This document shows positions 44,605-63,920 of a DNA stretch of 64,000 bases, piece by piece; the first letter of the stretch is position 1, and each line of letters starts with the position of its first letter. The translations under genes and the position numbers were made by a program. The notes beneath the pieces were generated by a model. It was not told the origin of the DNA. It worked only from the letters and a program-made list of their open reading frames with translations, and made no database searches. The stretch comes from Pollutimonas nitritireducens (GTDB lineage: Bacteria; Pseudomonadota; Gammaproteobacteria; Burkholderiales; Burkholderiaceae_B): contig NZ_PDNV01000008.1 in the NCBI RefSeq assembly GCF_002849615.1, positions 62,001-126,000 on the forward strand, in the 5' to 3' direction.

Positions 44605-44626
44605 TCCTACCTATAAGAGAACCATA

Positions 44627-47044: not shown

Positions 47045-47791
47045 GTGAGAGCCGTCGACAGAATTTTTTCGGTGCTTGACGCTTTTACACCGAGTCAGCC
47101 GAAACTGACGCTACAAGAAATCAGTGATCGTATCTCGCTTTCAAAAGCAACCACGTTCAGATTAGTCAACAGCCTGTACGACGCTGGCTATCTTGTCCGA
47201 CTGGATGATCAAAAATACTGTTTGTCGATGAAACTCATCAAACTGGCTGGCGTCGTAGCGACTGGTCTGAGTATTCGTGACATCGCGCATCCGATAATGG
47301 TGGGCATTGCCGATCAGACTGGAGAGACCATTAGTCTGAATACCGCCGTCGGGCGCGAACGCGTCTGCATCGATGTCGTTGAATCCAGCTCTCGCTTAAT
47401 GCATATTGTGAATCTGGGTGAGCATGCCCCATTGTATTTCGGTGCTACTGGAAAGGTACTTCTCTCGAACCTGTCCCAGGACGAGCAGGCCACCGTTCTA
47501 AAAACATTACCGGCCGACTTTCCCCTCACCGCCAAAAAACTTAAAGCCCAACTGGATGAAATTCATACGCAACGCTACGCAGTCACCAGGAGCGAACGCG
47601 TCATTGGGTCTCTAGCAATTTCTGTAGCCATATTTGACATCAATGATCAGGGAAAATTCGCCATAACACTTACCGGTCCTGAAGAACGGATGAAAATCCA
47701 GGAAGAGCGAAACCTCGACCTTATGCTTACCGCACAAAGAGAGGTTTCTTCCAAAATGGGATCCAGCCTTTTTTCACCCAATCTGCAATAA
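47045..47791 (+). CDS. IclR family transcriptional regulator (first of a paralogous pair)
   Basis: A 248-residue regulator. The winged HTH covers residues 1-60 (LTLQEISDRISLSKATTFRL), followed by the IclR effector domain (CIDVVESSSRLMHIVNLGEH, APLYFGATGKVLL). GTG start with AAGGA 5 bases upstream. It is very similar along its length to the IclR protein at 56458-57207, including the start VRAV(D/N)RIFS(V/I)LDAF. The two bracket the CoA-catabolic genes. It probably senses the pathway substrate and binds GTTTCAT/ATGAAAC-type sites (inference). Confidence 0.94.
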   Translation: MRAVDRIFSVLDAFTPSQPKLTLQEISDRISLSKATTFRLVNSLYDAGYLVRLDDQKYCLSMKLIKLAGVVATGLSIRDIAHPIMVGIADQTGETISLNTAVGRERVCIDVVESSSRLMHIVNLGEHAPLYFGATGKVLLSNLSQDEQATVLKTLPADFPLTAKKLKAQLDEIHTQRYAVTRSERVIGSLAISVAIFDINDQGKFAITLTGPEERMKIQEERNLDLMLTAQREVSSKMGSSLFSPNLQ

Positions 47792-47837
47792 AACAACTTC
47801 CCTGCCCTACGTGTGCCAAAGGCAATGGGTAAGCAAG

Positions 47838-49037
47838 TTATAGCTCAACCCTGAGTCGCTTCAATTTGTCCTCATCCAGCGTCACCCCAAGCCCCGGTTT
47901 GTCGCCGATGAAAAGATGCTTACCTTTTCTGGGTATTGGTTCAGTGACGATATCCTCAGCGAGCACCTCATTGATGCCAACGGCGATCGGGCCCTCTAAC
48001 AGCGGGCCAGGCCACGAGGTAGCAAGATGAATAGCCGCCGCCGACACTACGCTTGCTCCCGGATGGTTGCCGGGAAAAATCCTCATTCCACCCGCCGAGC
48101 CTATTTCCCATAAGCGTTTACACGCCCAGGCACCGCCATTTTTAGCGATCTTTGTTTGGAACACGCTGGCTGCCTTCATAGAGATCACTTTCAAGAGATC
48201 ATAGTCGGAGGATACCGCCTCGTCAGCCATGAACGGAACATTGTAGCGACGTGCCAGCTCTGCCATGCCATCGAGATTGGAGGGGGGTAGCAATTGCTCT
48301 ACTGCATCGAGTCCCAAGTGCTGAACCCGATTCATGAAGCGTAAAGCGCCGGCCCAATCCATACCACTGTTGCCGTCGGCACGAATGATCGCCTTGTCAC
48401 CAAAGGCGTCCACAACTTTCTCTACCACACCCGCATCGCGATCCGGATCATTGCCAACTTTAATGGTAAAGCTTGTAAACCCTTTTTCTATCCAGTTTCT
48501 GACGTCGTCAAGCAAGGCTTCTTCATCCTCGGATATGCCCAGTGTGATGCCGGCACACACCGAGTCTCGAGCCTTACCACCCAATAACTGATACGCTGGT
48601 ATACCAAGAACCTTGCCCTGAAGGTCGAGAAGAGCATCAGAGATTGGAGCCAGCGCATAGTTGGAACTCCAGACGCAGTCCCTGAGTTCGCCAAGAATCG
48701 ATGCATGATTAAACACATTCTTGCCAATCAAGCGGGGAGCGAATTGTTCCTGGATTATCGAAATAAGGCTTCTTAAGGTATCCCGACTGCCTTGGCGCAA
48801 CCACGCCTGTGTTTCGCCGATACCCACCAGGCCCGATGTTGTGTGCATTTTGAGCACGAGCACATCAATTCCCGGACGTGGGGCACCAAATGCTATCTTG
48901 AAGTCGGTTTTAAAAGGTAACCGAAGAGGAATCAACTCAAGCTCACGAATAACCCCAGCCTGGAAGGCATCTGATTTCACCCAATTGGCGGGCTCGGAAT
49001 GTTGGCTAACTTGAATATCACTGTTGCTGAGTTTCAT
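47838..49037 (-). CDS. Enolase superfamily enzyme, muconate-lactonizing/mandelate-racemase type
   Basis: A 399-residue (beta/alpha)8 enzyme of the MLE branch. The Lys base is K193 (TIKVG, where the usual first Lys of KxK is T191). Metal ligands are D221 (RADGN), E247 (VEQLL) and D272 (ADEAV), and the second Lys is K296 (QTKIAKNGG). Members racemise, cycloisomerise or dehydrate carboxylates by taking the alpha proton. About 27 residues precede the usual N-terminus, so a later start is possible. Its 5' end overlaps the MmgE/PrpD gene by 20 bases. Together with that gene it would rearrange a carboxylate skeleton before CoA activation. Confidence 0.9.
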   Translation of the reverse strand: MKLSNSDIQVSQHSEPANWVKSDAFQAGVIRELELIPLRLPFKTDFKIAFGAPRPGIDVLVLKMHTTSGLVGIGETQAWLRQGSRDTLRSLISIIQEQFAPRLIGKNVFNHASILGELRDCVWSSNYALAPISDALLDLQGKVLGIPAYQLLGGKARDSVCAGITLGISEDEEALLDDVRNWIEKGFTSFTIKVGNDPDRDAGVVEKVVDAFGDKAIIRADGNSGMDWAGALRFMNRVQHLGLDAVEQLLPPSNLDGMAELARRYNVPFMADEAVSSDYDLLKVISMKAASVFQTKIAKNGGAWACKRLWEIGSAGGMRIFPGNHPGASVVSAAAIHLATSWPGPLLEGPIAVGINEVLAEDIVTEPIPRKGKHLFIGDKPGLGVTLDEDKLKRLRVEL

Positions 49038-50406
49038 GGCTGTCCTCTAGTAAAGCGCTTAACGAGTAAATGTCACTAGTGCTTAAAAGGCTTTCGACAC
49101 ACTCAAGAATGGCAACTTGCTGGCCCGTAGAAATGTGTCCTGCGGTCAGAAGCAAAAACTTGTCTTTTATCTCCGGTCTGTGAAGTGGGTTCGCCGCCGA
49201 ACCGGAGCAATCTTGTATGGTGTGCGTCAGCGTCCGACCATCACGCAGATTGATGGTGATTGAACCCGCGTACTTCTGTGGAAAAAGCCTGTCTAATTCG
49301 TCGCTGACAACGCCAGAGATAGCATCGGCTACATTAAGCAACACGGAAGAGCGCAAACGACTTTCGCCGAACTGTGTGGGATCCCCGGCATCGGCGCACA
49401 AAGCGACAGCCAGAGAAAACGGAAGAGAGTACTGAGCCGACATCACTGACTCAGGTCTGTATTCCATATGGCCGGATATCATGTGCCTGGACCCATACGC
49501 CTTGACCGCGAGAATATCGTCGACGGAGAAAGAGTTATGTGCCTTCAGATATTTGATCGCATCGATAGCTGAGTGAAACAGTCGGCAGCATGCGTAAGGT
49601 TTGATACTGATCTCGTCGACAATCCACCTCTGGCCGAGATTTTCCAGAATCTTGTCCTTATCGGCGCTTGAGGAATTGGTCGCTACGTAGCCTCTCGGGC
49701 GGTCCAGTGTTTCCCTCGGACCTGTAAAGCCCAACCTCGCCAATTTGGCTGCTACAACGCCACTGTGAGCCGGCCAACCCGCATGCAAACGCTTGACCAT
49801 CGTTCCCATGGCGTCCTCGGTGAAGGCCATGCTTCCGGAATGAAGTGACGTCGCAATACCCCACGCAATATTCAGTTCGGCGCCGCTTAAACCAAGCAGT
49901 TTGGCAACGCCAGCACATGCCCCGAACACGCCATGGTTAGCGGTAGGATGCCAGCCTCGTGCCATAAAGTCCGGATCGAAGGCAGCGCCTATTCTGCCCA
50001 TGGCTTCGTAACCAGTGATGATCGCAACAATAGTTTCTTGCGGGGTGCTCTTCCGCTCTTGTGCAATGGCCAGCACGGCGGCAAATACTACCGCGCCTGG
50101 GTGGCTGACGGAAGCCTCATGCGTATCATCGAGCTCTATTCCATGTGCCATGGTTCCATTGACCAGGGCTGCCAGATCTGCGCTTGTACGGTGTGCTCCG
50201 TAAATTAGCGAAGGTCCGCTTGCGTTTTGTTCTTGCGCATACTTAAGAAGTATTTGCGTCCAGGGAAGCTTCCTGCCGGCAATTGACACCGCAAGATGAT
50301 CTATTAGCAGATCAATACATCGTTCCCTGGTTGAGGACGGTATATCCTCGTAGGCTAGCGACATTAAAAAGCCCGCCAGCTGTTGCGTAATCGTTGGAGT
50401 TACCAT
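49018..50406 (-). CDS. MmgE/PrpD family protein (first copy)
   Basis: A 462-residue member of the family that includes 2-methylcitrate dehydratase, cis-aconitate decarboxylase and iminodisuccinate epimerase. The start is chosen at MVTPTITQQLAGFLMSLAYE. The family motif is seen as IELDDTHEASVSHPGAVVFA and GWHPTANHGVFGACAGVAKL. It probably dehydrates, decarboxylates or epimerises a di- or tricarboxylate. It follows the TctC gene after a hairpin. A second MmgE/PrpD gene lies at 55055. Confidence 0.9.
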   Translation of the reverse strand: MVTPTITQQLAGFLMSLAYEDIPSSTRERCIDLLIDHLAVSIAGRKLPWTQILLKYAQEQNASGPSLIYGAHRTSADLAALVNGTMAHGIELDDTHEASVSHPGAVVFAAVLAIAQERKSTPQETIVAIITGYEAMGRIGAAFDPDFMARGWHPTANHGVFGACAGVAKLLGLSGAELNIAWGIATSLHSGSMAFTEDAMGTMVKRLHAGWPAHSGVVAAKLARLGFTGPRETLDRPRGYVATNSSSADKDKILENLGQRWIVDEISIKPYACCRLFHSAIDAIKYLKAHNSFSVDDILAVKAYGSRHMISGHMEYRPESVMSAQYSLPFSLAVALCADAGDPTQFGESRLRSSVLLNVADAISGVVSDELDRLFPQKYAGSITINLRDGRTLTHTIQDCSGSAANPLHRPEIKDKFLLLTAGHISTGQQVAILECVESLLSTSDIYSLSALLEDSHETQQQ

Positions 50407-50474
50407 GATAAACCCTGAGAGTGACCCGTTTAACGTTATCCGCCGCCACAAGTCCGCAATAGTGCAGAAGAACC

Positions 50475-50500
50475 GGTCAGGCTTTAACTAAAGCCTGACC
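50475..50500 (-). terminator. Perfect 12-bp hairpin between TctC and MmgE/PrpD genes
   Basis: GGTCAGGCTTTA-AC-TAAAGCCTGACC: 12 perfect pairs and a 2-base loop, 38 bases past the TctC stop and 69 before the next start. The tail GGTTCTTCTGC is only weakly T-rich. It may be a partial terminator or processing site that lowers expression of the two enzymes relative to the receptor. Confidence 0.6.
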
Positions 50501-50538
50501 AGCTCAACTGGCTACTATCAGCGACTTGGTTTTCCGAC

Positions 50539-51525
50539 TTACGATGGAGTGACGCCGGCCGCTTTTGCTGCCGCCTTCCAAAACTCCAACTCAAGATTAA
50601 AGAACTTGTTCATTTCCTCGGGTGTGCCACCCAGGGGCATTACGCCAAGCTCATCAAACCTTTTGATGACATCGGGCATCTTGAGAATCTCATTCACTTC
50701 TTTGTTGATCAACGTGACCACATCTTTCGATATACCCGCCGGCCCTGATAGACCTAACCAATAGTCGGAGACCAGTCCAGTCAGCCCAAACTCTTCCAGC
50801 GTTTCCGCTTCTTGCATTTTGCTGGATCGCTTTGCAGACGTAACAAATAGCGGGGTGACAGCACCGCTTTTTACATGGGCCTGTAACGATGAAATGGTGC
50901 CGAAGTACGCGTCGATATTGCCACCCAGCAGATCCTGCAAGGCAGCGCCGCCCCCCTTATAGGGAATATGATTCAGCTTGATGCCTGCGCGCTCTGCGAT
51001 GACTTCCATGAGCAAATGGTGAATCGAACCAACCCCAGCTGAACCGTAAGCAAATTCCCCCGGCTTTTTCTTGGCGTACGCCACCAATCCTGCTATGTCC
51101 TTGACCTCGTTCAAAGAAGACCGCACCCCCATAAGATTGGGAGCCGAAGCAACGAGCACGATGTGTTCATGATCCTTTTTATAGTCATAAGGTAGCGACT
51201 CCTGTACAGATGGATTCGTGGTGTTCATGCTGTTAGTAAGCAGCAACGTGTATCCATCCGGCTTAGCTTTCGCAACGGTATTAGACGCAATGATGGTGTT
51301 GGCGCCGGGTTTGTTATCGACGACTACCGGAACATTCAAACGAGCGGACAAATGCTTGGCGATTTCGCGGGCCACAGAATCGCTGGAAGCGCCAGGGGTG
51401 AGGCCGACTACCAAGGTAATAGGCCGCTCGGGATATGCCGCGGTCTGCGACTGCGCCTGAGTCGATAAAGTCAGCACAGCGGCCGTAGTGGCCACATATA
51501 AAATTTTCTGGATGGTCTTACGCAT
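50539..51525 (-). CDS. Tripartite tricarboxylate transporter receptor, TctC/Bug family
   Basis: A 328-residue receptor. The signal peptide (ILYVATTAAVLTLSTQAQSQ) is followed by ITLVVGLTPGASSDSVAREI, VVVDNKPGANTIIASNTVAK and IPYKGGGAALQDLLGGNIDA. Divergent from the acyl-CoA dehydrogenase operon. It is probably the high-affinity receptor for the acid degraded by this island; its TctAB partners are not in the window. Confidence 0.95.
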   Translation of the reverse strand: MRKTIQKILYVATTAAVLTLSTQAQSQTAAYPERPITLVVGLTPGASSDSVAREIAKHLSARLNVPVVVDNKPGANTIIASNTVAKAKPDGYTLLLTNSMNTTNPSVQESLPYDYKKDHEHIVLVASAPNLMGVRSSLNEVKDIAGLVAYAKKKPGEFAYGSAGVGSIHHLLMEVIAERAGIKLNHIPYKGGGAALQDLLGGNIDAYFGTISSLQAHVKSGAVTPLFVTSAKRSSKMQEAETLEEFGLTGLVSDYWLGLSGPAGISKDVVTLINKEVNEILKMPDVIKRFDELGVMPLGGTPEEMNKFFNLELEFWKAAAKAAGVTPS

Positions 51526-51884
51526 CTTGTCTCCCTTACTGTTTTGATAACTGATATGTCAGTCAATACTCGATTAGAACCCGATTTTAGGTTTCATTAG
51601 ATGAAACGAAGTCCATTCTTATATCATAATGCTTTAATGAAACGGCCATTGCAATAGATGTTTCCCCTAACCTCTGCCTCGAGAACAATGCCATTACTGC
51701 GCACCCTGGCACTGGCAACACGGCGCCACGTTTAGAGCACGGTAGCCGTAGTCGGAATATCGGATGCTTTGCGCCGGCCAGAATTTCGTGTATGCTTTTA
51801 ATGAAACCAGTTTTAGTACACGAAACTTATATGTTCGCGCCGAAAACGCGATGAACTGTGTGGCGCATCAACAAGAGAATTATC
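51526..51884. promoter_or_regulatory. 359-base divergent control region with IclR-like operator and half-sites
   Basis: No gene is seen here. GTTTCAT-TAG-ATGAAAC (51591-51607) is a perfect inverted repeat. Further ATGAAAC half-sites lie at 51637-51643 and 51801-51807, each preceded by a GCTTT-type A/T run. The stretch from 51630 to 51810 contains no other clear signal. The region separates the TctC/PrpD/MLE operon from the acyl-CoA dehydrogenase operon, so one regulator could control both. Confidence 0.6.
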
Positions 51885-53042
51885 ATGAACTTTGATCTCA
51901 ACCCAGACGACCAGGCATTTGCTGACTCGGTTCGACGCTTTGCCAAAGACAAACTCACTGACGGCACACTCGAACGAGCGCACTCCCCCCACTATCCCTG
52001 GGACATTGCAAAAATGCTGGCTGAACAAGGCCTGTTTGGTATTGCATTTACAGAAGACGACGGCGGACAGGGCGGCACACTGATGCAAGCCGTGCTTGCC
52101 ATCCAAGAGATTGCCCTGATATGTCCCAAAAGCGCCGACATCGTGCAGGCAGGAAACTTCGGTCCCATCCGTACATTTGTCGAGTATGCGACCGCCGAAC
52201 AAAAAGAGCGTTTTCTGCCTGATCTTCTGGGCGGAAAAAAACTGATTTCATTAGGCATGACGGAACCTGACGCCGGCTCCGCGGTCACCGAACTACGCAC
52301 CACGGCACGCGCGGACGGTGACGAATATGTCATCAACGGCACAAAGATCTTCTCAACGCACAGTCCCGAAGCAGAGCTGTTCCTCATCTACCTGCGTTTC
52401 GGCCCCGGCCTGGACAATATCGGTTCGGTGCTGGTCGAAAAAGGCACCCCGGGATTTACCGTAGGTAACCCGTCGAACTTCATGAACGGCGAGCAATGGA
52501 GCCAGCTGTATTTTGAGGACGCCCGCATTCCCGCCAGTAATTTGCTCCTGGGACCTGGTGGTTTCAAAAAACAGATTTCAGGCTTTAATGTCGAGCGCCT
52601 TGGCAACGCCTCGCGCTCTTTGGCTTTGGGCCGTCATGCATTCAACATCGCTCGTGAACATGCAATGAATCGCAAGCAGTTTGGCCGTGCGCTCTGCGAA
52701 TTTCAAGGTCTCCAATGGAAGTTCACCGACATGGCCATGCGTCTCGAACAAGCGCAATTGCTCCTGTATAAAGCTGCAATGGAGGGGGAGCACAGCTTGC
52801 CCAGTGCACAAAGCACGGCCATGGCGAAACTGGCCTGTAACGAAGCTGGCTGGTTCGTTGCCAATGAAGCACTGCAGGTGATGGGCGGCATGGGCTTCAG
52901 CCAGGAAGCCATTGTCGAGTATTGTGTACGCCGCATCCGCGGCTGGATGATTGCGGGCGGTTCGATCGAGGTATTGAAGAACCGTATTGCCGAGGGCGTC
53001 TTCGGTCGTTCGTTCTCGCAACGAGCCCCGAAAGCACAGTAG
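51885..53042 (+). CDS. Acyl-CoA dehydrogenase (first copy)
   Basis: A 385-residue flavoenzyme of normal length. FAD/substrate motifs: SLGMTEPDAGSAVTELRTTA, NGTKIFSTHS and LQVMGGMGFSQEAIVEYCVR. The C-terminal position of the usual catalytic Glu (YEGT) reads IAGGSIE, so Glu is replaced by Ala. The base may come from another helix, as in isovaleryl- and long-chain enzymes, or act on an unusual acyl-CoA. First gene of a four-gene plus-strand operon with the SDR, a second dehydrogenase and MmgE/PrpD. A longer in-frame start exists upstream, but CAAGAGAA precedes the chosen ATG. Confidence 0.92.
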   Translation: MNFDLNPDDQAFADSVRRFAKDKLTDGTLERAHSPHYPWDIAKMLAEQGLFGIAFTEDDGGQGGTLMQAVLAIQEIALICPKSADIVQAGNFGPIRTFVEYATAEQKERFLPDLLGGKKLISLGMTEPDAGSAVTELRTTARADGDEYVINGTKIFSTHSPEAELFLIYLRFGPGLDNIGSVLVEKGTPGFTVGNPSNFMNGEQWSQLYFEDARIPASNLLLGPGGFKKQISGFNVERLGNASRSLALGRHAFNIAREHAMNRKQFGRALCEFQGLQWKFTDMAMRLEQAQLLLYKAAMEGEHSLPSAQSTAMAKLACNEAGWFVANEALQVMGGMGFSQEAIVEYCVRRIRGWMIAGGSIEVLKNRIAEGVFGRSFSQRAPKAQ

Positions 53043-53112
53043 CGCCCAACGCGGCGCATTACGCCAGTCGTCTTTGATTGACGCACTGAACAGAAATTAT
53101 CTGGAGATAGCG

Positions 53113-53895
53113 ATGGATTTAGGTATCAAAGACAGGGTTGCAGTAATAACGGGGGGCGTGCAAGGCATTGGCCTTGAAGTAGCGCGCGAGCTGGCGCGAG
53201 CTGGGGTGAACCTGGTCCTTGCCGACGTGAACGCAGCGGCCGGCAGCGATGCGGTAAGCGAATTAAGCAAATCGGTCACGGCAGAATTCGTACTGACCGA
53301 TCTCACCCAACCTGAATCTGTAAAGGGCATGATAGACGTCGCCATGCAAAAATTCGGTCGAGTCGATTTCTTTGTGAACTGCGCTGCCATCCTCGACGAC
53401 AAGACGTTCGAAGAGTCATCGCCAGATGACTGGAAACGAATGCTGGATGTGTGCCTGTTGGGGCCCATGCACTGTTTGCATAATGTTCTGCCAATCATGA
53501 AGGCCCAGGAATTCGGTCGCATCGTGTGCTTTTCATCAGACTCCGCCCGTATCGGCCAAGCCCGGCTGTCTTACTACGCAGCCGCCAAAGCCGGCGTCAC
53601 CACATTGGTAAAGTCCATCGCCCAGGAAATGGGCCAGCACGGGATCACGGCCAACATTGTGTCACCCGGTGCAACAAACACGCCCTTGCGCATGAGACGC
53701 GAAGAAGCGCTACGCGAACAAATGGGCGAAGAGAAATACCAGCGCAGGGTGAAAACGGTTGAAAAAATGTACCCCTTGCGTCGCATCGGAGAACCTTCAG
53801 ACATCGCGCCCATGGTGGCGTTCCTTCTCAGCGAGCACGCAAGCTGGATGACTGGTCAGGTGATCAGCATCAACGGCGGCTTTACGATGGTGTAA
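53113..53895 (+). CDS. Short-chain dehydrogenase/reductase, BadH/FabG-like
   Basis: A 260-residue classical SDR. The cofactor motif is TGGVQGIG (13-20). The acidic D38 in VLADVN favours NAD. Catalytic S142, Y155 and K159 (YYAAAK) are intact, and the C-terminus is MTGQVISINGGFTMV. IVCFSSDSARIGQARLSYY resembles 2-hydroxycyclohexanecarboxyl-CoA dehydrogenase (BadH) in the same place. Likely role: oxidise a 3-hydroxyacyl-CoA made by the hydratase to the 3-ketoacyl-CoA. Ribosome site GGAG 8 bases before the ATG. Confidence 0.92.
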   Translation: MDLGIKDRVAVITGGVQGIGLEVARELARAGVNLVLADVNAAAGSDAVSELSKSVTAEFVLTDLTQPESVKGMIDVAMQKFGRVDFFVNCAAILDDKTFEESSPDDWKRMLDVCLLGPMHCLHNVLPIMKAQEFGRIVCFSSDSARIGQARLSYYAAAKAGVTTLVKSIAQEMGQHGITANIVSPGATNTPLRMRREEALREQMGEEKYQRRVKTVEKMYPLRRIGEPSDIAPMVAFLLSEHASWMTGQVISINGGFTMV

Positions 53896-53900
53896 CGGAA

Positions 53901-55046
53901 ATGAACTTTGAATTAACGACAGAACAACGCCAGCTCCAGGACGCGGCAATCCGACTCTCGCAGAATAAACTGATGCCAATTCTGGCGGCCCATCCAAAAA
54001 GTGTGTCATTGTCCAAGCCCGTCATGCTGGACATATTCAAGATTCTGGCGGAATTCGGGCTCACCGGCGCGCGCGTTCCAGAAGAGCTTGGCGGCAGCGG
54101 GCTAAGCATGCTCGACTACGGCCTTGTATTCGAACAGCTGCCACCGGTTATCGCTTTGGCGCTCATTGCCCATGACGGCACCACGTCACGCCTTTGTGCA
54201 AGCGGCGTCGCCCAAGACTCTCCCCAGCTGATCGAAGACCTCCTGACGGGCAAGAAGATCGCATGTACAGCGTCCACCGAACCGACCACCGGATCTGATC
54301 CTCGCAGCGTCAAGTTGCGCATTCGCGAATCGGACGACGGCAAAACAGCGTTCCTGTCGGGCACTAAGCAATGGATCACCAACGGCACTATCGCTGACGT
54401 CGCCTTCGTGACGGGCAAACTGGACGGTAACGGCGAGCTTCAGCGCTATCTTGTAGAACACGCCGTGTCGCCGTACACCGCTACCGAGATCCCATGTATT
54501 GGTTTGCAGCAAGGCCATCTAAGCGAGCTGATGTTCGACCAGGTGCCGGTGCCGCTCAGCAACGCCATTGGTAACGACAACAGCACAATGAAAACGCTGA
54601 CGCAAGCCTGGCTCGTCAACCGCCCGCTGCTTGGCCTGCTTGGCCTTAGATCCGCAGAGCGCGCAAAAGAAGCAGCCTTAGAGCATGTGAAAGACCGCAT
54701 ACAATTCGGCTCTGTTCTTGCCAGCAAACAGCTGATGCAGGAAGCGTTGGTCGATATCGAAGCGTCCATTCAGAGCGCACGATTGCTCTGTTACAGTGCG
54801 CTGGATGCCGCCGATCGCGGCGTGGCAACCCAAGCGTTATCTGCCATGGCGAAGCGCCAGGGTGTAGCCACCGCCGAAAAGGCCGCCAGCATTGCAATGC
54901 GACTTTGCGGCGCGATGGGTCTTGCAATCGAAACAGGCGTGGAACAGCACGCTCGCGACATCAAGATGTTGACCATCCCTGACGGCACCTACGAGATTCT
55001 GACTCTCATCGCCGGTCGGGAAATTACCGGTCAAAGCGCTTTCTAA
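53901..55046 (+). CDS. Acyl-CoA dehydrogenase (second copy)
   Basis: A 381-residue dehydrogenase. Landmarks are LTGARVPEELGGSGLSMLDY, ACTASTEPTTGSDPRS and SGTKQWITNG. The C-terminal catalytic Glu position reads IPDGTYEI, so Asp stands where Glu is usual. It differs clearly from the first copy. The two could form a heteromeric enzyme, as in some steroid-ring dehydrogenases, or act on successive intermediates. It lies 5 bases after the SDR gene. Confidence 0.92.
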   Translation: MNFELTTEQRQLQDAAIRLSQNKLMPILAAHPKSVSLSKPVMLDIFKILAEFGLTGARVPEELGGSGLSMLDYGLVFEQLPPVIALALIAHDGTTSRLCASGVAQDSPQLIEDLLTGKKIACTASTEPTTGSDPRSVKLRIRESDDGKTAFLSGTKQWITNGTIADVAFVTGKLDGNGELQRYLVEHAVSPYTATEIPCIGLQQGHLSELMFDQVPVPLSNAIGNDNSTMKTLTQAWLVNRPLLGLLGLRSAERAKEAALEHVKDRIQFGSVLASKQLMQEALVDIEASIQSARLLCYSALDAADRGVATQALSAMAKRQGVATAEKAASIAMRLCGAMGLAIETGVEQHARDIKMLTIPDGTYEILTLIAGREITGQSAF

Positions 55047-55054
55047 GGATGCCC

Positions 55055-56401: not shown

Positions 56402-56414
56402 CCACCTATGCATA

Positions 56415-56452: not shown

Positions 56453-56457
56453 CAGCT

Positions 56458-57207
56458 TCAGTCGCAAACTGCTGCAGAAAACAGCCCGGCCCCCATCTTC
56501 AATGAAATCTCCTTTTGGGCCTGAAGCATCAGCGCCAGATTACACTCTTGCTCATCTCGCATCCGCTCTTCGGGCCCGGTCAGCGTCAGCGCATACATAC
56601 CTCGGTCGTCCATATCGAAAAGCGCCACCGAAATGGCGAGAGATCCTGCCACGCGTTCGCTTTTGGTAACCGCATAGTAAGATTTCCGAATCTGCGCGAG
56701 CCTGGCTTTTAGTTCGGCAGACTCCATGGAAAAATCAGCTGGCAAGGCACTGATAATGGCGGACTGCTCATCTGGAGGCAAATGCGCCAACAGCACCTTG
56801 CCTGTGGCGCCATAAAACAAAGGTGCATGCTCCCCCAGATTTACGATGTGCGTCAGACGAGATTCTGCTTCGACAACATCAATGCAGACACGATCTGTTC
56901 CTACCACGGCGTTCAGGCTAACCGTTTCGCCTGTTTTTCTCCCAATCTCAACCATCGTCGGACGCGCCATATCGCGAACGCTGAGCCCGCTGGCGACAAC
57001 ACCCGCCAGCTTGACGAGTTTCATGGACAGGCAATACCTCTGATCCTCCAGCTTCACCAGGTAGCCTGCGCCACACAGGCTGTTGACCAAGCGGAATGTC
57101 GTTGCTTTGGAAAGCTGGATGCGATCGCCGATTTCCTGCAGCGCGAGCTTGGTTCTGTCGGCGGTGAACGCATCTAGTATCGAGAAAATTCTATTGACAG
57201 CCCGCAC
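56458..57207 (-). CDS. IclR family transcriptional regulator (second of the pair)
   Basis: A 249-residue IclR protein, clearly paralogous to the one at 47045 (shared KATTFRLVNSL, RYCLSMKLVKLAGVVASGLS, RVCIDVVE, HIVNLGEHAPL and YGATGKVLL). I chose GTG at 57207, which aligns with the other protein's start; TGAGG lies 6 bases before it, and 7 bases separate it from the synthetase stop. Last gene of the hydrolase/crotonase/synthetase operon. Confidence 0.92.
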   Translation of the reverse strand: MRAVNRIFSILDAFTADRTKLALQEIGDRIQLSKATTFRLVNSLCGAGYLVKLEDQRYCLSMKLVKLAGVVASGLSVRDMARPTMVEIGRKTGETVSLNAVVGTDRVCIDVVEAESRLTHIVNLGEHAPLFYGATGKVLLAHLPPDEQSAIISALPADFSMESAELKARLAQIRKSYYAVTKSERVAGSLAISVALFDMDDRGMYALTLTGPEERMRDEQECNLALMLQAQKEISLKMGAGLFSAAVCD

Positions 57208-57214
57208 CGCAGCC

Positions 57215-59320
57215 TCAGGCGTTATGGGAAGCTGCAGGCAGCTCGCCAAGCACGACCAAGCCGTCAAGCGCCCTGACACCTTGCCCTTTGGCAAGAATAG
57301 CCAATGGGTTAATCTCTGCCTCGGCCACCTGGGCATTTGCGCACTTTGCGAGCGTAGACATCTTGGCCACTACATCGGCCAACGCATCCAGGTCACCTAG
57401 CGGCAAGTTCCGATAGCCAGAGAACTGCGCAAACGCCTTGACCTCAGTGATCATCTTTCTTGCTTCCTGAGGTGAGACCGGTGCCGGACGGATACTGACA
57501 TCTTGATAGAGCTCGGCAAGCACGCCCCCCAGACCGACGGAAATAACCGGGCCGACGGCAGGATCGTGCGAATAGCCAACCAACGCCTCGCCAAGCCCTC
57601 GCACCATTTCCTGGACCTGAAAACCTTCAATGAATGCGTCGGGCAACGTGGCATTGATCCGAACCAGCATGTTTTGAGCCTCATGTCGGAGCTCGTTTAC
57701 GTTGGCAATGCCCAGTTTCACGCCACCCACTTCGGTTTTGTGAGGTATTGACGCAGATGATATCTTCAGAACACAAGGGAACTGGATCTGCTCTACCGTC
57801 TCGCCCAGCCAGGTAGCGGGTTCAGCGGATAACGTCCATTCCTGCACTTGCGGAATACCGAGAGAAGCCAGTACATTTTGCGAATCAACCGAACTGAGCG
57901 TTTGACCGGGTTCATGACCATCAAGCGCAGTTACGACGACAGCACACGAATCCGAATGCTGTCGTGGCGCCTGCCAACGGGCCCAGGCGCTCAATGCGTC
58001 GGCGCAGGCTTCAGGTTGTGAAAACACCGCGACACCCGCGTCACGCAATAACTTTCTGGACCGCTCGGCGTTAGGAGTAAGAAATACTGCCAGCGGCTTG
58101 CTGGTTTGAATCGAAACAATCGGCGACACCGCGCGATCAGGGCGAAACTGCGAGGAGGAACCTACCACAGCCACCACGGCGTCGATGTCGGGCGAGTCAA
58201 CAAATGCAGACAATACGGCGCCGTAGGTTGCGGGATTTGTACCCGTCAACGTTAAATCGACCAACGGCGCATCGCTGATATGAATGCCCTTGCGCGCCAG
58301 GCCGGCTTGCATCTCGAGTGACGGCGAAACGACATCGATATTGCGTTCGCCCATGTTGTCAACGATCAAGGCGCCGCCCCCGCCCGTTGTCGACATCACG
58401 CCAATGCGCGCGCCTGTACCGCGACCATGGCGAAACAAGGCCGGCGCATCCAGCAATGCTTCGAAGTTGAATAATTCGACTATGCCGATATCCCTGAGGA
58501 AAGCAGAGGTCGCTTTACCGTTACCCGTTAAAGCGCCCGTATGCGATACCGCCAAATGCTGACCAATTGCCGAGCGCCCCAGGCGATAGGCCAAAATGGG
58601 CTTGTTGGCCTCATGCGCCTTCATTGCGGCGCGCCGCAATGCCGCCGGGGAGCGAATGGTCTCGAGAAAGAGTTGAATAACCTGAGTTTGCGGGTCGTCC
58701 ACCATCATTTCGACCAGCTCGGCCACCGAGATGTCAGCCTCGTTACCGACCGATACCAGCTTTGAAAAACCGATACCAAGCGCTACACCGCGTGAAAGGA
58801 TGGCACCCAACAAGCTGCCGCTCTGAGAAATGAGACTCACATCACCGGCAGGAAGCTCGCTTAACGACAGCACTTCATTGGCCGACAAGGCCACCTGTGC
58901 GTGCACATCGACAACGCCCAACGCATTCGGCCCCAAGAGCCGGGTCTGGGATCCTTTGAGCATGCCCAGAAGCTTTTCCTGCCGGGCCATACCGTCAATA
59001 CCCGCCTCGGAAAAACCATTGGACATGATAGTGACGCAACGCACCTTGGCTGCAATGCAGTCTTCAACCGCAGAGAGTACGTGCTCGGTGGGAAGCATGA
59101 TATAGGCGTGTTCGACCTGTTCCGGTACTTCGCTTACCTTTGGGTAAGCCTTCAGTCCCAGTACGACATCTCTGCGCGGATTGATGGGAAAGATGGTACC
59201 TGGATAGCCATGCTGAGTAAGATGTTTCTGCGGCAACGCTGAATGCTTGTCTACGTCGGCGGAAGCGCCAACCAAAGCAATCGACTTGGGGCGAAAAAGG
59301 GCGCTGATCAGTTCTGACAT
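57215..59320 (-). CDS. ADP-forming acyl-CoA synthetase (AcdAB-type fusion)
   Basis: A 701-residue acetyl-CoA-synthetase (ADP-forming)-like protein. A CoA-binding Rossmann domain (PKSIALVGAS, 11-20) is followed by succinyl-CoA-ligase-like domains with the phospho-His H260 in VSHTGALTGN, and then a C-terminal ATP-grasp region (LASLGIPQVQEWTLSAEP; ASIPHKTEVGGVKLG). It joins an organic acid to CoA with ADP and phosphate as products, cheaper than the AMP-forming type. It probably activates the island's substrate. AAGGAG lies upstream of the chosen ATG, which is 4 bases past the crotonase stop. Confidence 0.92.
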   Translation of the reverse strand: MSELISALFRPKSIALVGASADVDKHSALPQKHLTQHGYPGTIFPINPRRDVVLGLKAYPKVSEVPEQVEHAYIMLPTEHVLSAVEDCIAAKVRCVTIMSNGFSEAGIDGMARQEKLLGMLKGSQTRLLGPNALGVVDVHAQVALSANEVLSLSELPAGDVSLISQSGSLLGAILSRGVALGIGFSKLVSVGNEADISVAELVEMMVDDPQTQVIQLFLETIRSPAALRRAAMKAHEANKPILAYRLGRSAIGQHLAVSHTGALTGNGKATSAFLRDIGIVELFNFEALLDAPALFRHGRGTGARIGVMSTTGGGGALIVDNMGERNIDVVSPSLEMQAGLARKGIHISDAPLVDLTLTGTNPATYGAVLSAFVDSPDIDAVVAVVGSSSQFRPDRAVSPIVSIQTSKPLAVFLTPNAERSRKLLRDAGVAVFSQPEACADALSAWARWQAPRQHSDSCAVVVTALDGHEPGQTLSSVDSQNVLASLGIPQVQEWTLSAEPATWLGETVEQIQFPCVLKISSASIPHKTEVGGVKLGIANVNELRHEAQNMLVRINATLPDAFIEGFQVQEMVRGLGEALVGYSHDPAVGPVISVGLGGVLAELYQDVSIRPAPVSPQEARKMITEVKAFAQFSGYRNLPLGDLDALADVVAKMSTLAKCANAQVAEAEINPLAILAKGQGVRALDGLVVLGELPAASHNA

Positions 59321-59324
59321 CTGG

Positions 59325-60107
59325 TCATTCTCCTTTGAACTGGGCTGTGCGCTTTTCCAGGAATGCCGAGATACCTTCAGCCTTGTCCGCCGTTCCATAC
59401 ACCGTGGTGACAAGCATTGTTTCGAACTCGATCGCAGAAGCAAGATCCATTTGCATCCCGCGATGGACTGCACGCTTCACGAACGCAAGCGAAAGCGGCG
59501 CGCGAGTAGCATAGTGTCCAGCCAGCTTGACAGCGGTTTCAAGCGCCGCGCCACTTGCTACGCGCCGATTGATCAGCCCCATTCTTAACGCTTCGCTGGC
59601 GTCGATGGGTTCAGCGGAAAAAAGGATATCCAACGCATTCGCCAGGCCTACAACGCGAGGCAGACGTTGAGTACCACCCGCGCCAGCGACCGTACCGATA
59701 CGCGAGCTGGTAATGGCAAACGTCGCGCCCTCGCCGGCGACACGCAGGTCTGCCGCCAGTGCAAGTTCCAGCCCACCTGTCATGCAGAACCCTTCGATGG
59801 CTGCAATAACCGGCTTGGACGACTGTTCAAGTGCTTCATTAAGACGGTGCCAGTGACTGAAGTATCGCCGTCCTTCCTGGGCCGAGCTGATTTTGAACGC
59901 CTCGTTGAGATCGGCACCCGCAGAGAAATAGTCGCTTCCGCCGGTCAGTATGATAGCCGACATATCTTTGCGACTTTCAACCTCCTGGCAAGCTGAAATG
60001 ATCTCGTCCATCATTTGCTCGCTGATCGCATTCCGCCGCTCGGGACGGTGGAGTTCAATGATAAATGCGGGGCCTTCACTACGAGTGTTGATTGTTTGGT
60101 AATTCAT
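59325..60107 (-). CDS. Enoyl-CoA hydratase/isomerase (crotonase) with one catalytic Glu replaced
   Basis: A 260-residue crotonase. The oxyanion-hole regions FSAGADLNEA (61-70) and GFCMTGGLELALAAD are intact, and the first catalytic Glu is E114 (GGLE). The second Glu of hydratases (in QPE of rat mitochondrial hydratase) falls at S134 in FAITSSRIGT. One acid/base residue suggests an isomerase, a hydrolase or a changed hydration mechanism. It overlaps the alpha/beta hydrolase gene by 29 bases. Confidence 0.92.
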   Translation of the reverse strand: MNYQTINTRSEGPAFIIELHRPERRNAISEQMMDEIISACQEVESRKDMSAIILTGGSDYFSAGADLNEAFKISSAQEGRRYFSHWHRLNEALEQSSKPVIAAIEGFCMTGGLELALAADLRVAGEGATFAITSSRIGTVAGAGGTQRLPRVVGLANALDILFSAEPIDASEALRMGLINRRVASGAALETAVKLAGHYATRAPLSLAFVKRAVHRGMQMDLASAIEFETMLVTTVYGTADKAEGISAFLEKRTAQFKGE

Positions 60108-60945
60108 GTTTTGTTCCTTCTAGATGGAATTGACTGATTGTGGTATTGACTGCGCTGCTGGCTTCATACTGAAGCCAATGCCCCGCACCGGGAATCATTT
60201 CGACCCTTGCTTTGGGTAACGACTGGTTCAAGAGCGCTTTACGCTCAAATTTCGACGGGAAGATCAGAGGATCTTGCTCACCCAGCAGTATTTGCAGGGG
60301 AATGTCCAGTCGTTGCAAGTTCTTGATAAGCGAATTTTCGTAACTGATAACCCTGCTGTCGAACCTGGCCAGGCCGACGTTCCGCAAATGTATTTCAACT
60401 GCCGGGTCATCGACCGAGGGCTCTTTTGCCAGCATCCAGCGCCCAAGATTGCGCGCGGTTGCCGCATTGATTTCATGCATGGGAGTGCTATCGCTCTTCC
60501 GGACCTTCTCGAGCGTGATCAATCTGCCCGTTGGCTTGCCGAAGCCCGAGGGGCTGATCAAACTTAAGCGGCTGGGGGCATGTCCTTGCGCAGCCAGCTG
60601 TACGGCAACACCCGCCGACACTGCGCCACCGAAACTGAATCCGGCCAAATGGAAAGGCTGATCGTTGACAGCAAGGCGAACTGCCTGGGCCACCCAAGCG
60701 AGGTATTCCTGGGTGCTTATACCTTCCGAGACCGTTGCGGACTCACCGAAGCCGGGTAGGTCCAGCGTCACGACGGTGAAACTGGCCGCGAGCGTTTCGA
60801 CATTATTGGTCCAGTGCGTGCGGGAGCCCGCCCCACCATGGATCAAGATGAGATTGGGCCCCTGCCCTATTGTGCGTACGGAAAGGCCTACCTTGTAGGC
60901 GCGCGAGCCAAAAACTTGCATTGGAAGGTTCTCTTTATCAGCCAT
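60079..60945 (-). CDS. Alpha/beta hydrolase (MhpC/BphD-like fold)
   Basis: A 288-residue serine hydrolase. The oxyanion strand is LILIHGGAG, the nucleophile elbow GFSFGG (S104), the acid probably D in LLGEQDPLIFPS, and the base H in IPGAGHWLQYE. Layout and length fit C-C bond hydrolases of ring-cleavage pathways, lactonases and thioesterases. First gene of the minus-strand operon. It may open a lactone or cleave a ring product, or release CoA. ATG 60945 was used; a TTG 18 bases earlier is less likely. Confidence 0.9.
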   Translation of the reverse strand: MADKENLPMQVFGSRAYKVGLSVRTIGQGPNLILIHGGAGSRTHWTNNVETLAASFTVVTLDLPGFGESATVSEGISTQEYLAWVAQAVRLAVNDQPFHLAGFSFGGAVSAGVAVQLAAQGHAPSRLSLISPSGFGKPTGRLITLEKVRKSDSTPMHEINAATARNLGRWMLAKEPSVDDPAVEIHLRNVGLARFDSRVISYENSLIKNLQRLDIPLQILLGEQDPLIFPSKFERKALLNQSLPKARVEMIPGAGHWLQYEASSAVNTTISQFHLEGTKHELPNNQHS

Positions 60946-60955
60946 TTGATGTATT

Positions 60956-60982
60956 CTAGTCAATGAAACTACTTTTGACTAG
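60956..60982. promoter_or_regulatory. Inverted repeat between divergent hydrolase and CoA-transferase genes
   Basis: CTAGTCAA-N11-TTGACTAG, perfect 8-bp arms. The spacer region holds one ATGAAAC (60963-60969), the half-site also seen at 51591-51807. It starts 11 bases upstream of the hydrolase ATG. Likely operator for one of the IclR proteins. Confidence 0.6.
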
Positions 60983-61068
60983 TGGAACTTTATATCCTGA
61001 TCGAAAGCAAGTCAGGAAGTGCGTACGCTATAAAGGAAAGTCACAACGGATCACGTTCAGGAATCGAG

Positions 61069-63069
61069 ATGTCCCACAAGCCTTATTCAAATATTCATGT
61101 TGTCGAGCTAGGCGCACGCACTGGCGCAAGCACTTGCGGCCGGCTATTGGCCGACCTTGGAGCAACGGTCTACGTCATAGAGGCCCGCTCCGCGTCAAAG
61201 CCACCGAAAGGTAAATGGCGTGACCGCATCGCCGCGGTGGCCGGCAAAGAAAGTTTGTTGGCCGACCCCTCAAATCCGGACGACATACAGGCATTGACAG
61301 AGTTGATAAGCGCGTGCAATGTTGTCGTTCGAAGCTCCGACCTTGATGAAGACCATTGGCCGGCCAGTTTGTACCAGGCGATCGCCGACTGTCCAATTGT
61401 TTGCGACATAACCGCATTCGGCTCAACCGGCCCCTTGGCAGGCCGCAGCAGTGAAGAGTGGGAGCTCCAGGCGCTGACGGGTATCATGCACACCACCGGC
61501 TTGCCTACAGAGCCCCCAATCCCCGTGGGCGTTCCCGTCGTTGAAATGTCGTCAGGACTCTACGCAGCGGCAGCCATCTCGGTGGCGCTGCGCGTGCACG
61601 CGCACTCAGGCATAGGCCAATCCATCGAGATCGCGCTCTACGACGTTGCAATCAATACTCTCACCACATTCGTAGCCCCTCACTACGCCGGGCTCCAGCC
61701 TCGGCGACTGGGCAACGGGCATGGCATGGCCGTTCCCTGGAACGCCTACAACACGTCGGACGGCTGGATACTGATCTGTACCACCAACGATGCGCAATGG
61801 AATCGTTTGAAGCCGCTGATCGGTTCAGCCGCCGACCGCGAAAAGTATGCAGCGCTCAAGTTGCGCCTGATCTACCGCGAAGAGATTGACGCACTAATGC
61901 GCGACTGGACGAGCACTCAAACGTTGGATGCACTGGAAGCACTCCTGAATCAAAGCGGCATACCATGTGGACGCATTGCAGCCATCGATAGTCTTGCCCA
62001 AGAACCCAATCTGAAGTTTCGCGGTACCGTACAACAAGTTGCGGACCCTGTCAGCGGAACAACGGCCAAGGTGTGTAGCGCCATCTACCGTTTCATGGGC
62101 CAGTCTCCGTCTCGCGTTTGCATTCCGGAACCTGACTCCGGCCGTGCGGCTGCAAAAGCCCTGCTGCTCCGACCAAAGCCCGTAAGCCAGCCACGCACGG
62201 CGAATGTTGCTGCTCAAGCATTGCAAGGACTGCGTGTCATTGAAATCGGGCAACTCACGACCGCACCCTTGGCCGCTCGTCATTTGGCCACATTGGGCGC
62301 GGAAGTCATCAAAGTGGAACCGCCGGATGGTGAAAGTGCGCGCGCGTGGGAACCCAAACGCAACGGCATCAGCCACTTTTTTGTTGTCAGTAATGGGGAA
62401 AAACGCAGCATATCGCTTGACCTGCAAAACGCTGATGATCGTGACTACATGTCGGAGCTTATTAAAGACGCGGACATTCTTCTGGAGAATATGAAGCCTG
62501 GGGCGCTGGCACGCATGGGCTTTGGGTATGAACGGCTACAGACCCTTAATCCGAATCTCATCTATTGCGCCATTTCTGGATTTGGGATCCATTCAGCTTA
62601 TCCCGGGCGAGCGGCAGTGGACACCGTCATACAGGCCATGTCCGGCATCATGGATACTACGCGCAGTCGCGGAACACCTGTAAAGGCGGGCATTTCGGTC
62701 GCCGACATCGCGGGTGGCCAAACCGGCTTGCTTCTGGTTCTGGCTGCACTTGCCTGGCGTGAACAGACCGGCCAAGGCTGTGCCATCGACATCTCTATGC
62801 AAGATGTCGGCGCCTGGATGACTCAATACCAATGGAACGGCGCCCAGGCCCAGTCCAATATACCGGCGTTCGCCAGCAGCGTCGGAGACGCCTGCACCCA
62901 TGAACAAACGCGCGCACGTGAACTGATTCAATTACACCAAGATGCCAACGGTCAATCATGGGAAGTCTTCGCCTCGCCAATGCGTTTGTCTCTCACGCCA
63001 GCCCGGTTAGGCACTCTCATAGGCCCCACAAGTCGTGACCGCTTGCGCTGGCGTCCGCGTACGCACTAA
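61069..63069 (+). CDS. Double-domain CaiB/BaiF CoA transferase
   Basis: A 666-residue tandem class III CoA transferase. Domain 1 (about residues 8-370) starts NIHVVELGARTGASTCGRLL; domain 2 (about 387-666) starts LQGLRVIEIGQLTTAPLAAR. The catalytic Asp position holds Glu in domain 1 (E159, PVVEMSSGLY) but Asp in domain 2 (D546, ISVADIAGGQ). Domain 2 is about 280 residues, too short for a whole CaiB fold, and seems to lack the small domain. Fused halves could replace the usual interlocked homodimer. AGGA lies 6 bases before the chosen ATG. Divergent from the hydrolase operon. Confidence 0.9.
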   Translation: MSHKPYSNIHVVELGARTGASTCGRLLADLGATVYVIEARSASKPPKGKWRDRIAAVAGKESLLADPSNPDDIQALTELISACNVVVRSSDLDEDHWPASLYQAIADCPIVCDITAFGSTGPLAGRSSEEWELQALTGIMHTTGLPTEPPIPVGVPVVEMSSGLYAAAAISVALRVHAHSGIGQSIEIALYDVAINTLTTFVAPHYAGLQPRRLGNGHGMAVPWNAYNTSDGWILICTTNDAQWNRLKPLIGSAADREKYAALKLRLIYREEIDALMRDWTSTQTLDALEALLNQSGIPCGRIAAIDSLAQEPNLKFRGTVQQVADPVSGTTAKVCSAIYRFMGQSPSRVCIPEPDSGRAAAKALLLRPKPVSQPRTANVAAQALQGLRVIEIGQLTTAPLAARHLATLGAEVIKVEPPDGESARAWEPKRNGISHFFVVSNGEKRSISLDLQNADDRDYMSELIKDADILLENMKPGALARMGFGYERLQTLNPNLIYCAISGFGIHSAYPGRAAVDTVIQAMSGIMDTTRSRGTPVKAGISVADIAGGQTGLLLVLAALAWREQTGQGCAIDISMQDVGAWMTQYQWNGAQAQSNIPAFASSVGDACTHEQTRARELIQLHQDANGQSWEVFASPMRLSLTPARLGTLIGPTSRDRLRWRPRTH

Positions 63070-63122
63070 CCCATCGCCCACCCTTGCACACACTATTTAA
63101 CTGATCCATTCTGGAGATAAGC

Positions 63123-63920
63123 ATGAACTACGAAGATATTCTCTACGCCGCGGTGGACGGAATCGCCACCATAACTATCAATCGTCCCGAAGTGCGCAAT
63201 GCCATTCGCCCCCGCACTTATGAGGAACTTACCGCCGCCATGCACATCGCCGCGGACGATCCCACTGTGGGTGTCGTCGTTCTCACCGGTGCGGGCGACA
63301 AGGCATTCTGCTCGGGCGGCGACATCCGCGATCAACAGGCACGGGTACCGGAAGTCGGTCGCAAACATATGCGACGCCTGTTCGCACTGTCGTCTGTCAT
63401 CCGCATGATGGACAAGCCCGTTATCGCCAAGGTACGCGGCTACTGCGTAGGCGGTGGTAACGAGATCAATTTGTTCTGCGACATGACCATTGCCAGCGAA
63501 GACGCAAAATTTGGCCAGACAGGCCCTCGAGTAGGCAGCGTTCCCATCTGGGGCGCATGCCAATTGCTTGCGCGCTATGTGGGCGAGCGCAAGGCGCGTG
63601 AAATCCTGTATACATGCCGCCTTTACACCGCGCAACAGGCACTGGACATGGGCTTGATCAACGACGTCGTGAAAGCGGAAGACCTGGATGGCGCCGTTGA
63701 TTCGCTTTGTCAGGAAATCCTGGACAAGAGTCCGCAAAGCATTCGTATTGCCAAGCTCGCGCTCAATGCCGGTTCAGACCAAGAGTTCTACAGCTCTTTC
63801 TTCCCCAATTCCGAGCTGCTTGCCTCTATTTACGGCAACCCCGAGAACATGGAAGGCATCACCGCATTCCTGGAAAAACGCAAACCCGAATACCGCAAGT
63901 ATCGTACCTCCCGCGCTTAA
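63123..63920 (+). CDS. BadI/MenB-like crotonase superfamily enzyme
   Basis: A 265-residue crotonase whose plan follows 2-ketocyclohexanecarboxyl-CoA hydrolase (BadI) and naphthoyl-CoA synthase (MenB): LTGAGDKAFCSGGD (54-67), GYCVGGGNEINLFCDMTIAS, GQTGPRVGSV (131-140), YVGERKAREILYTCRLYTAQ and the C-terminal EKRKPEYRKY. As in BadI/MenB, the hydratase Glu is replaced by Gly (G134). The Asp that follows GSV in BadI and MenB is Pro here (P141), so the exact reaction is open. GGAG lies upstream. It probably cleaves or closes a cyclic 3-keto-acyl-CoA. It follows the double CoA transferase after 53 bases. Confidence 0.9.
   Translation: MNYEDILYAAVDGIATITINRPEVRNAIRPRTYEELTAAMHIAADDPTVGVVVLTGAGDKAFCSGGDIRDQQARVPEVGRKHMRRLFALSSVIRMMDKPVIAKVRGYCVGGGNEINLFCDMTIASEDAKFGQTGPRVGSVPIWGACQLLARYVGERKAREILYTCRLYTAQQALDMGLINDVVKAEDLDGAVDSLCQEILDKSPQSIRIAKLALNAGSDQEFYSSFFPNSELLASIYGNPENMEGITAFLEKRKPEYRKYRTSRA

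Follow-up and report, generated by a model that had tools for sequence, protein, structure and literature searches.

An undescribed gene cluster in Pollutimonas nitritireducens with a BadI/MenB-fold crotonase of a separate clade: a candidate regulon for the degradation of an alicyclic or branched acid

An island of catabolic genes in Pollutimonas nitritireducens raises the question of whether enzymes that resemble those of cyclohexanecarboxylate degradation encode that known route or a different one. The island occupies positions 47045–63920 of the analysed window, i.e. a stretch of 64,000 nucleotides corresponding to positions 62001–126000 of contig C37 in the 4.31-Mb assembly. An earlier note had described it as carrying the full step list of cyclohexanecarboxylate-type degradation, with several altered catalytic residues and with added proteins foreign to that route. 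All of the genes named there open as intact frames, and family searches support each of the names. Our analysis points, with the arguments about evenly balanced, to a single undescribed regulon for degrading, in a CoA-dependent manner, an alicyclic or branched acid with one or more carboxylates in addition to that bound to CoA.

The key protein is the BadI-like crotonase encoded at 63123–63920 (plus strand). It has the crotonase fold and the oxyanion-hole glycines, and is 47–52% identical to the BadI-type proteins aligned with it. Its score against the BadI equivalog TIGR03210 was 251.7 bits (cut-off 467.6). The relatives L055, L061, L063 and L067 gave 238–250 bits on this model and the actinobacterial L070 gave 240.9 bits; the values for BadI-type loci were 468.5 (L072), 467.2 (L111), 461.9 (L083), 443.6 (L074) and 357.0 bits (L133). 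Three MenB models were likewise matched below their cut-offs (269.8 v 380, 268.9 v 342.7 and 185.8 v 378 bits). In a tree of 46 rows, whose outgroup branch is very long and in which the position of the actinobacterial rows is unsure, the protein fell into a clade of 19 (support 98/99), separate from the 23 BadI-type rows. The top Foldseek match of its AlphaFold model (pLDDT 89.5) was MenB (E 2.5e-26 to 4elx), with a TM-score of only 0.74 and a root-mean-square deviation of 17.3, which perhaps reflect differently placed terminal helices. The 50 rows listed by the fold search brought in no relatives other than MenB and crotonases.

Alignment of the clade revealed Glu114, Pro141, Arg84 and Arg85 in 18/18 rows; the corresponding entries in all 23 BadI-type rows are Val, Asp, a gap, and either Pro or Ser, respectively. 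Pro141 aligns with Asp-163 of MenB and Arg84 with Leu-106, the former being catalytically essential and the latter contacting the acyl ring (PMC3637252, in excerpt). Glu114 sits at the first catalytic Glu of enoyl-CoA hydratases (a register read by eye from the alignments), which are enzymes with two catalytic Glu residues (excerpt of PMC3660561). The equivalents, by alignment, of MenB Ser-161 (Ser139, 18/18 rows) and Tyr-258 (Tyr237, 17/17 rows reaching it) are present, and three actinobacterial relatives, including that of Rhodococcus jostii RHA1, have Glu and Pro at the columns of Glu114 and Pro141. On these sequence grounds the protein is one of MenB/BadI fold with a predicted mixed catalytic set, placed in a clade of its own. 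It might represent a new class of crotonase-fold C–C hydrolase in a pathway for alicyclic polycarboxylic acids, in which a Glu base would replace the Asp of MenB and BadI (with bicarbonate in type I MenB) and the Arg pair would serve a second carboxylate; we offer this class tentatively and regard it as rather doubtful.

The same residues bear on the main rival explanation, an acyclic substrate. A branched di- or tricarboxylic acid would then be degraded without any ring being opened, and the BadI-like protein and the enoyl-CoA hydratase/isomerase (ECH; 59325–60107, minus strand) would be single-Glu crotonases acting on open-chain enoyl-CoAs by hydration, dehydration or cleavage. The position of Glu114 at the first Glu of crotonases, the loss of the MenB Asp and the lack of the second Glu in ECH agree with this. 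The MmgE/PrpD, PrpF-like, aconitase-like (by eye, in one relative) and Bug genes would also suit open-chain polycarboxylates, and in Acinetobacter the genes for acyl-CoA dehydrogenase 1 (ACAD1) and the ADP-forming ligase adjoin pcaF and a DcaP porin gene. However, the BadI-like protein is closest to MenB/BadI in both sequence and fold and keeps the Ser-161 and Tyr-258 equivalents, a gene for a BadH-like short-chain dehydrogenase/reductase (SDR) adjoins that of the BadI-like protein, and the window's cluster shows no thiolase gene. An open-chain substrate seems to us possible, if somewhat improbable.

Unusual residues were also found in three further enzymes (the counts include the window's own protein and only those orthologues above a protein-specific identity floor). 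ECH keeps the first catalytic Glu and has Ser in place of the second (15/15), i.e. it does not carry both catalytic Glu residues. ACAD1 (51885–53042, plus strand) has Gly at the position of Glu376 of medium-chain acyl-CoA dehydrogenase (MCAD) and a Glu within NVER or NIER (12/12), and acyl-CoA dehydrogenase 2 (ACAD2; 53901–55046, plus strand) has Asp at the MCAD position (11/11). The NVER motif of ACAD1 presumably marks the place of the isovaleryl/long-chain base, in a register of isovaleryl-CoA dehydrogenase that we assume. In the human isovaleryl- and long-chain dehydrogenases the base lies in helix G, and the long-chain enzyme takes bulky branched acyl groups (PMC11153573, in excerpt). Together with Pro141 of the BadI-like protein (18/18), these substitutions bear out the statement of the earlier note that several catalytic residues are changed. 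Since they are conserved in orthologues, they do not resemble decay.

Another explanation would be ordinary cyclohexanecarboxylate (ali/bad) or perillate (mrc) degradation by diverged enzymes, and the list of folds is indeed the same: a dehydrogenase, a hydratase, a BadH-like SDR and a BadI-like crotonase. Nevertheless, ACAD1 and ACAD2 reached only 128.1 and 125.6 bits against the cyclohexanecarboxyl-CoA dehydrogenase model TIGR03207 (cut-off 575.35), and the SDR (53113–53895, plus strand) only 169.6 bits against the BadH equivalog TIGR03206 (cut-off 431.2), which, like the score of the BadI-like protein, is far under the ali/bad cut-offs. The ali/bad genes shown in the excerpt of PMC9795900 include no ADP-forming ligase, IclR regulator, double CaiB or MmgE/PrpD. 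In the limonene/perillate route of Castellaniella the ring hydrolase, MrcE, is 88% identical to a BadI (PMC4109377, in excerpt), unlike the window protein with its 47–52%. Curated scores, residues and gene content therefore led us to reject the cyclohexanecarboxylate and perillate pathways in their plain form, which we consider very improbable. The claim of a full step list of cyclohexanecarboxylate-type degradation is not supported: the ligase is ADP-forming, four proteins miss the three ali/bad models, the regulators are of the IclR family and the MenB residue is replaced. The ring and terpenoid substrates suggested with it are guesses.

Is the gene set more than a local accident? The BadI-like protein was found at 73% identity or above in 4 of 399 genomes of the order, its own included, and, at E 1e-100 or better, only in its own among 369 genomes of the class (a limited number of candidates was scored per genome in both searches); with so few carriers, the protein counts as rare and its distribution as patchy. 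Scanning public genomes yielded 15 loci at 73–90% identity, the next ones all being at 52% or below among the best 80 of 188. Plasmid records yielded one close match, that of Paraburkholderia caribensis, among 71 matched. The 15 scan loci, two loci of genome G140 and this plasmid make up the 18 relatives that were compared, two of which are contigs shorter than 5 kb. The controls were 54 BadI-type loci (10 of 64 were dropped as shorter than 15 kb, and the BadI model was applied to only five of the 64).

With presence thresholds chosen after a first look at the relatives' loci, and with extra DNA searched for 10 of the 18 relatives (up to approximately 70 kb, against at most approximately 20.8 kb for the controls), the relatives carried ECH, SDR and PrpD2-like genes in 15 cases each, CaiBB in 14, IclR and PrpD1-like genes in 13 each (the two PrpD counts overlap, as these form one family), ACAD1, ACAD2 and the alpha/beta hydrolase in 11 each, the ADP-CoA ligase in nine, etfB in three and the MLE enolase in one. 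Among the 54 controls, SDR, PrpD1 and PrpD2 were each detected once, etfB 10 times and all of the others not at all. Counted as distinct places, MmgE/PrpD genes occur at least once in 15/18 relatives and at least twice in 8/18, against at least once in 1/54 controls. The gene set around the BadI-like gene exceeds a chance neighbourhood. In 15/18 relatives an SDR gene (at least 38% identity) goes with the BadI-like one, on the same contig in 14 and on another contig in Sphingobium SC_3. The earlier note had named a split of these two genes between different conserved clusters as an outcome that would overturn its reading, and the synteny seen here does not overturn it on that count. Its view of a coherent, apparently undescribed catabolic cluster is upheld by the recurrence of each core gene in 9–15 of the 18 relatives compared with 0–1 of the 54 controls. 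Its list of additions stands for the MLE enolase (1/18) and fails for MmgE/PrpD (15/18) and the alpha/beta hydrolase (11/18), both of which are part of the recurring set. In the literature, no title or abstract describing this gene set was found, most subscription journals lying outside the coverage of the search.

After correction of the start codons (each ATG: ACAD1 51885, SDR 53113, PrpD1 50406, ADP-CoA ligase 59320, alpha/beta hydrolase 60945, CaiBB 61069), the island forms two divergent pairs of gene runs: (i) Bug-PrpD1-MLE (minus strand) opposite ACAD1-SDR-ACAD2-PrpD2 (plus strand), and (ii) alpha/beta hydrolase-ECH-ADP-CoA ligase-IclR2 (minus strand) opposite CaiBB-BadI-like (plus strand). 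The pattern YGAAACNNNTTTTNNNNNNNGRAAC is present in the intergenic regions of both pairs, as candidate regulator box 1 in the Bug/ACAD1 promoter region (51802–51826, plus strand) and box 2 in the hydrolase/CaiBB promoter region (60964–60988, plus strand). These were the only two matches in the window, and none was obtained in 100 shuffles. In the 4.31-Mb genome four matches with at most one mismatch were detected, of which only the two island sites are perfect; the reversed pattern, used as a control, gave two matches in the whole genome. Both regions of the metagenome-assembled genome (MAG) bin46 (Alcaligenaceae) also contain the box. Lacisediminimonas has it in the Bug/ACAD1 region, oriented to Bug and not to ACAD1, and carries a variant with two differences in the hydrolase/CaiBB region. 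Since both promoter regions share one box that is matched perfectly nowhere else in the genome, the island is probably one regulon, and the shared box argues against separate induction of its halves. The box may be bound by an IclR protein, and the island is probably controlled by two sister regulators, IclR1 at the left edge of the island (47045–47791, plus strand; PF01614 and PF09339 over cut-off) and IclR2 (56458–57207, minus strand; putative start codon), which are 68% identical. A palindrome, GTTTCAN5TGAAAC, with the same TGAAAC element as the box, was noted near the Bug start in the window (51591–51607) and in bin46 (L143:5760-5776).

The promoter regions also bear on a further alternative, namely that two or more unrelated pathways are neighbours here, with Bug-PrpD1-MLE on one side and the CoA pathway on the other. 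The MLE gene is shared with only 1/18 relatives, there are two IclR genes, and other groupings of Bug, MmgE/PrpD and CaiB genes exist too. Yet one box serves as a common feature of both promoter regions, the CoA enzymes recur together, and the whole order is kept in bin46, where the full set lies on one contig at 62–90% identity, beginning with IclR1 and MLE and ending in a BadI-like gene that the contig end truncates (bin46 is the sole relative with MLE, at 83% identity). We consider a juxtaposition of unrelated pathways unlikely.

For a single regulon, the following route can be proposed. The substrate would be taken up via the Bug/TctC tripartite carboxylate receptor (50539–51525, minus strand; PF03401) and activated by the ADP-forming CoA synthetase, with a later CoA exchange by the double CaiB. 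ACAD1, as a dehydrogenase of branched/bulky-acyl type, and ACAD2 would carry out alpha,beta-dehydrogenation and pass electrons to the electron transfer flavoprotein (ETF), ECH would hydrate the product and the SDR would oxidise the beta-hydroxyl. The BadI/MenB-fold enzyme would then perform hydrolytic C–C cleavage of the beta-keto acyl-CoA, Glu114 standing in for the MenB Asp/bicarbonate and Arg84/Arg85 holding the extra carboxylate, and the MmgE/PrpD proteins would rearrange or dehydrate the released di- or tricarboxylic acid. From the gene content, recurrence, residue changes and shared box observed here we infer each reaction and its position in the order, as well as the substrate and which regulator acts on the box. 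A second carboxylate on the substrate is plausible, each clue alone being weak: it is suggested by the invariant Arg84-Arg85, the MmgE/PrpD proteins, the PrpF-like genes in three relatives (L055 and L060, by eye; L147, annotated) and the Bug/TctC receptor.

Several observations weigh against this route and the regulon behind it. The Asp required in MenB is lost, so that hydrolytic ring opening would not be assured, and ECH and ACAD1 do not have the usual residues, so that each of these steps could be another reaction of the superfamily. The genome contains 10 MmgE/PrpD matches, and only 8/18 relatives have two or more near by; the family being so common, two copies in the island are weak evidence alone. 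Trinickia has no ACAD2, and that of P. caribensis is fragmented. Because the box was defined on the island sites themselves, its presence there is no independent test, and the exact pattern was not found in the other relatives' loci fetched; the evidence lies in the lack of another perfect match in the genome and in the recurrence in two other organisms. Finally, plasmid records of Cupriavidus, Comamonas, Agrobacterium, Acinetobacter, Martelella and Rhodococcus carry ACAD1 and an ADP-CoA ligase with no BadI-like gene close to them, so the pair may serve a wider substrate class or open several related pathways.

Across Alpha- and Betaproteobacteria the set is reshuffled. In Bosea, a Beijerinckiaceae MAG and Xanthobacter tagetidis the order is CaiBB-PrpD-OYE-PrpD-ligase-ACAD1-CaiB-ECH-hydrolase (OYE assigned by eye), followed on the opposite strand by BadI-SDR-ACAD2-IclR, and in X. 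tagetidis a liv-type transporter (by eye) separates the two halves. The name of a host gave no usable hint of the substrate: X. tagetidis is called a thiophene degrader (PMC6624754, in excerpt), and no link to the cluster was seen. In Sphingobium SC_3 the remaining enzymes are encoded on a contig other than that of the BadI-like gene, and approximately 19–34 kb separate that gene from ACAD1 and the ligase in Trinickia and P. caribensis. Between SDR and PrpD2, plasmid 2 of P. caribensis has ACAD2-like matches in three pieces, partly under 'hypothetical protein' (L147:13345-14482), and the gene looks broken; Trinickia (L055) has no room for ACAD2 at this place. In Bradyrhizobium sp. dw_411 an aconitase/isopropylmalate-dehydratase-like frame (by eye; L061:17272-18534) and the BadI-like gene are approximately 7 kb apart, and in L060 and L137 thiolase-like frames (by eye) were seen near the BadI-like gene. 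Plasmids of several genera (L148, L151, L154, L156, L157) have ACAD1 and an ADP-CoA ligase as a module of their own, with an alpha/beta hydrolase, a FadB-like protein, an aldehyde dehydrogenase or a GMC oxidoreductase near by in some. On plasmid pRHL3 of R. jostii RHA1 (L152:8778-19392), a relative of the BadI-like protein (51%) is encoded within a run for an AMP-binding protein, a CoA-transferase, a thiolase with an OB-fold partner, an ACAD, an ECH, an SDR and a second CoA-transferase of approximately 600 aa, which is perhaps a parallel pathway.

The remaining island proteins could be assigned to families. The ligase (57215–59320, minus strand) belongs to the ADP-forming acyl-CoA synthetases, with fused CoA-binding, ligase (Succ_CoA_lig) and ATP-grasp domains and the His of a kept SHTGA motif, which we take to be catalytic; it scored below the cut-off on all three NCBIfam ligase equivalogs tested. 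AliA is AMP-forming, and no such ligase is found in the cluster, the only ligase seen having Succ_CoA_lig and ATP-grasp_5 domains. The two-domain family III (CaiB/BaiF) CoA-transferase CaiBB (61069–63069, plus strand) is clearly homologous to CaiB, with a second domain shorter than full CaiB; at the motif that we take to hold the catalytic Asp, the first domain has Glu and the second Asp. PrpD1 (49018–50406, minus strand) and PrpD2 (55049–56401, plus strand) are MmgE/PrpD proteins (PF03972 and PF19305 over cut-off). At E 0.001 their solved-structure matches were only IDS-epimerase and cis-aconitate decarboxylase or IRG1 entries, headed by IDS-epimerase for PrpD1 and by IDS-epimerase and cis-aconitate decarboxylase for PrpD2. 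The alpha/beta hydrolase (60079–60945, minus strand) has a GFSFG nucleophile motif, Asp and His, and the MR/MLE-type enolase (MLE; 47838–49037, minus strand) matches PF13378 and PF02746. A menaquinone-like pathway, with MenB-, MenC- and MenH-like proteins side by side, was rejected: MLE and the hydrolase are far below the MenC and MenH cut-offs, and MLE is outside the recurring set.

Beyond the window end, etfB and then etfA follow the CaiBB-BadI-like run after 86 bp (L010:8007-9686) and may be an extension of the island; etfB is near 3/18 relatives and 10/54 controls. Farther on (L010:9737-14372) lie a CaiB gene, two ACAD genes whose top NCBIfam match is pimeloyl-CoA dehydrogenase (below cut-off), and an opposite-strand Bug-like receptor gene, which may form a further acid-degradation unit. 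To the left of the island (38940–46830), an oligopeptide-type ABC transporter (by eye) is encoded beside a HAD-type phosphatase and a PehA-type ester hydrolase (954.7 bits against a cut-off of 900 on the phosphoric/sulfuric ester hydrolase PehA model); these genes look like another unit, for uptake and hydrolysis.

If a single regulon of this kind exists, a recurring proteobacterial set now annotated as generic dehydrogenases, hydratases and CoA-transferases would gain a function, the names BadI or MenB would be wrong for its key protein, and the clade would be a natural test of how the crotonase fold swaps its catalytic base. Cultured carriers of much of the set, X. tagetidis, Trinickia mobilis, Lacisediminimonas profundi and P. 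caribensis, make it testable now.

Four known systems invite comparison. The ali/bad cluster (AliA, AliB, BadK, BadH and BadI; Aromatoleum sp. CIB, PMC9795900, in excerpt) shares with the island a CoA ligase, an ACAD, a hydratase, an SDR and a BadI/MenB-fold protein in one cluster; the ADP-forming ligase, the two base-changed ACADs, the double CaiB, MmgE/PrpD, the alpha/beta hydrolase and IclR are features of the island, whose BadI-like protein does not have the Asp present in 23/23 BadI-type proteins aligned. The mrc genes of Castellaniella defragrans 65Phen share a hydratase, an SDR and a ring hydrolase acting on an alicyclic CoA ester and have genes for dehydrogenase and dienoyl-reductase in their vicinity; the mrcA-H rows in the excerpt of PMC4109377 list neither MmgE/PrpD nor CaiB, and the island protein does not share the orthology of MrcE with BadI. 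EchA20, the steroid ring-D hydrolase, is a MenB-like crotonase of a CoA pathway that opens a ring by a reverse Dieckmann reaction and is approximately 28% identical to MenB (PMC5380842, in excerpt). The MenB proteins are its best solved-structure relatives, with up to 47% identity and with the oxyanion-hole glycines and the Ser-161 and Tyr-258 equivalents in common; the island protein differs from them in the replacement of Asp-163 by Pro (18/18) and of Leu-106 by Arg, and in the Glu gained at position 114.

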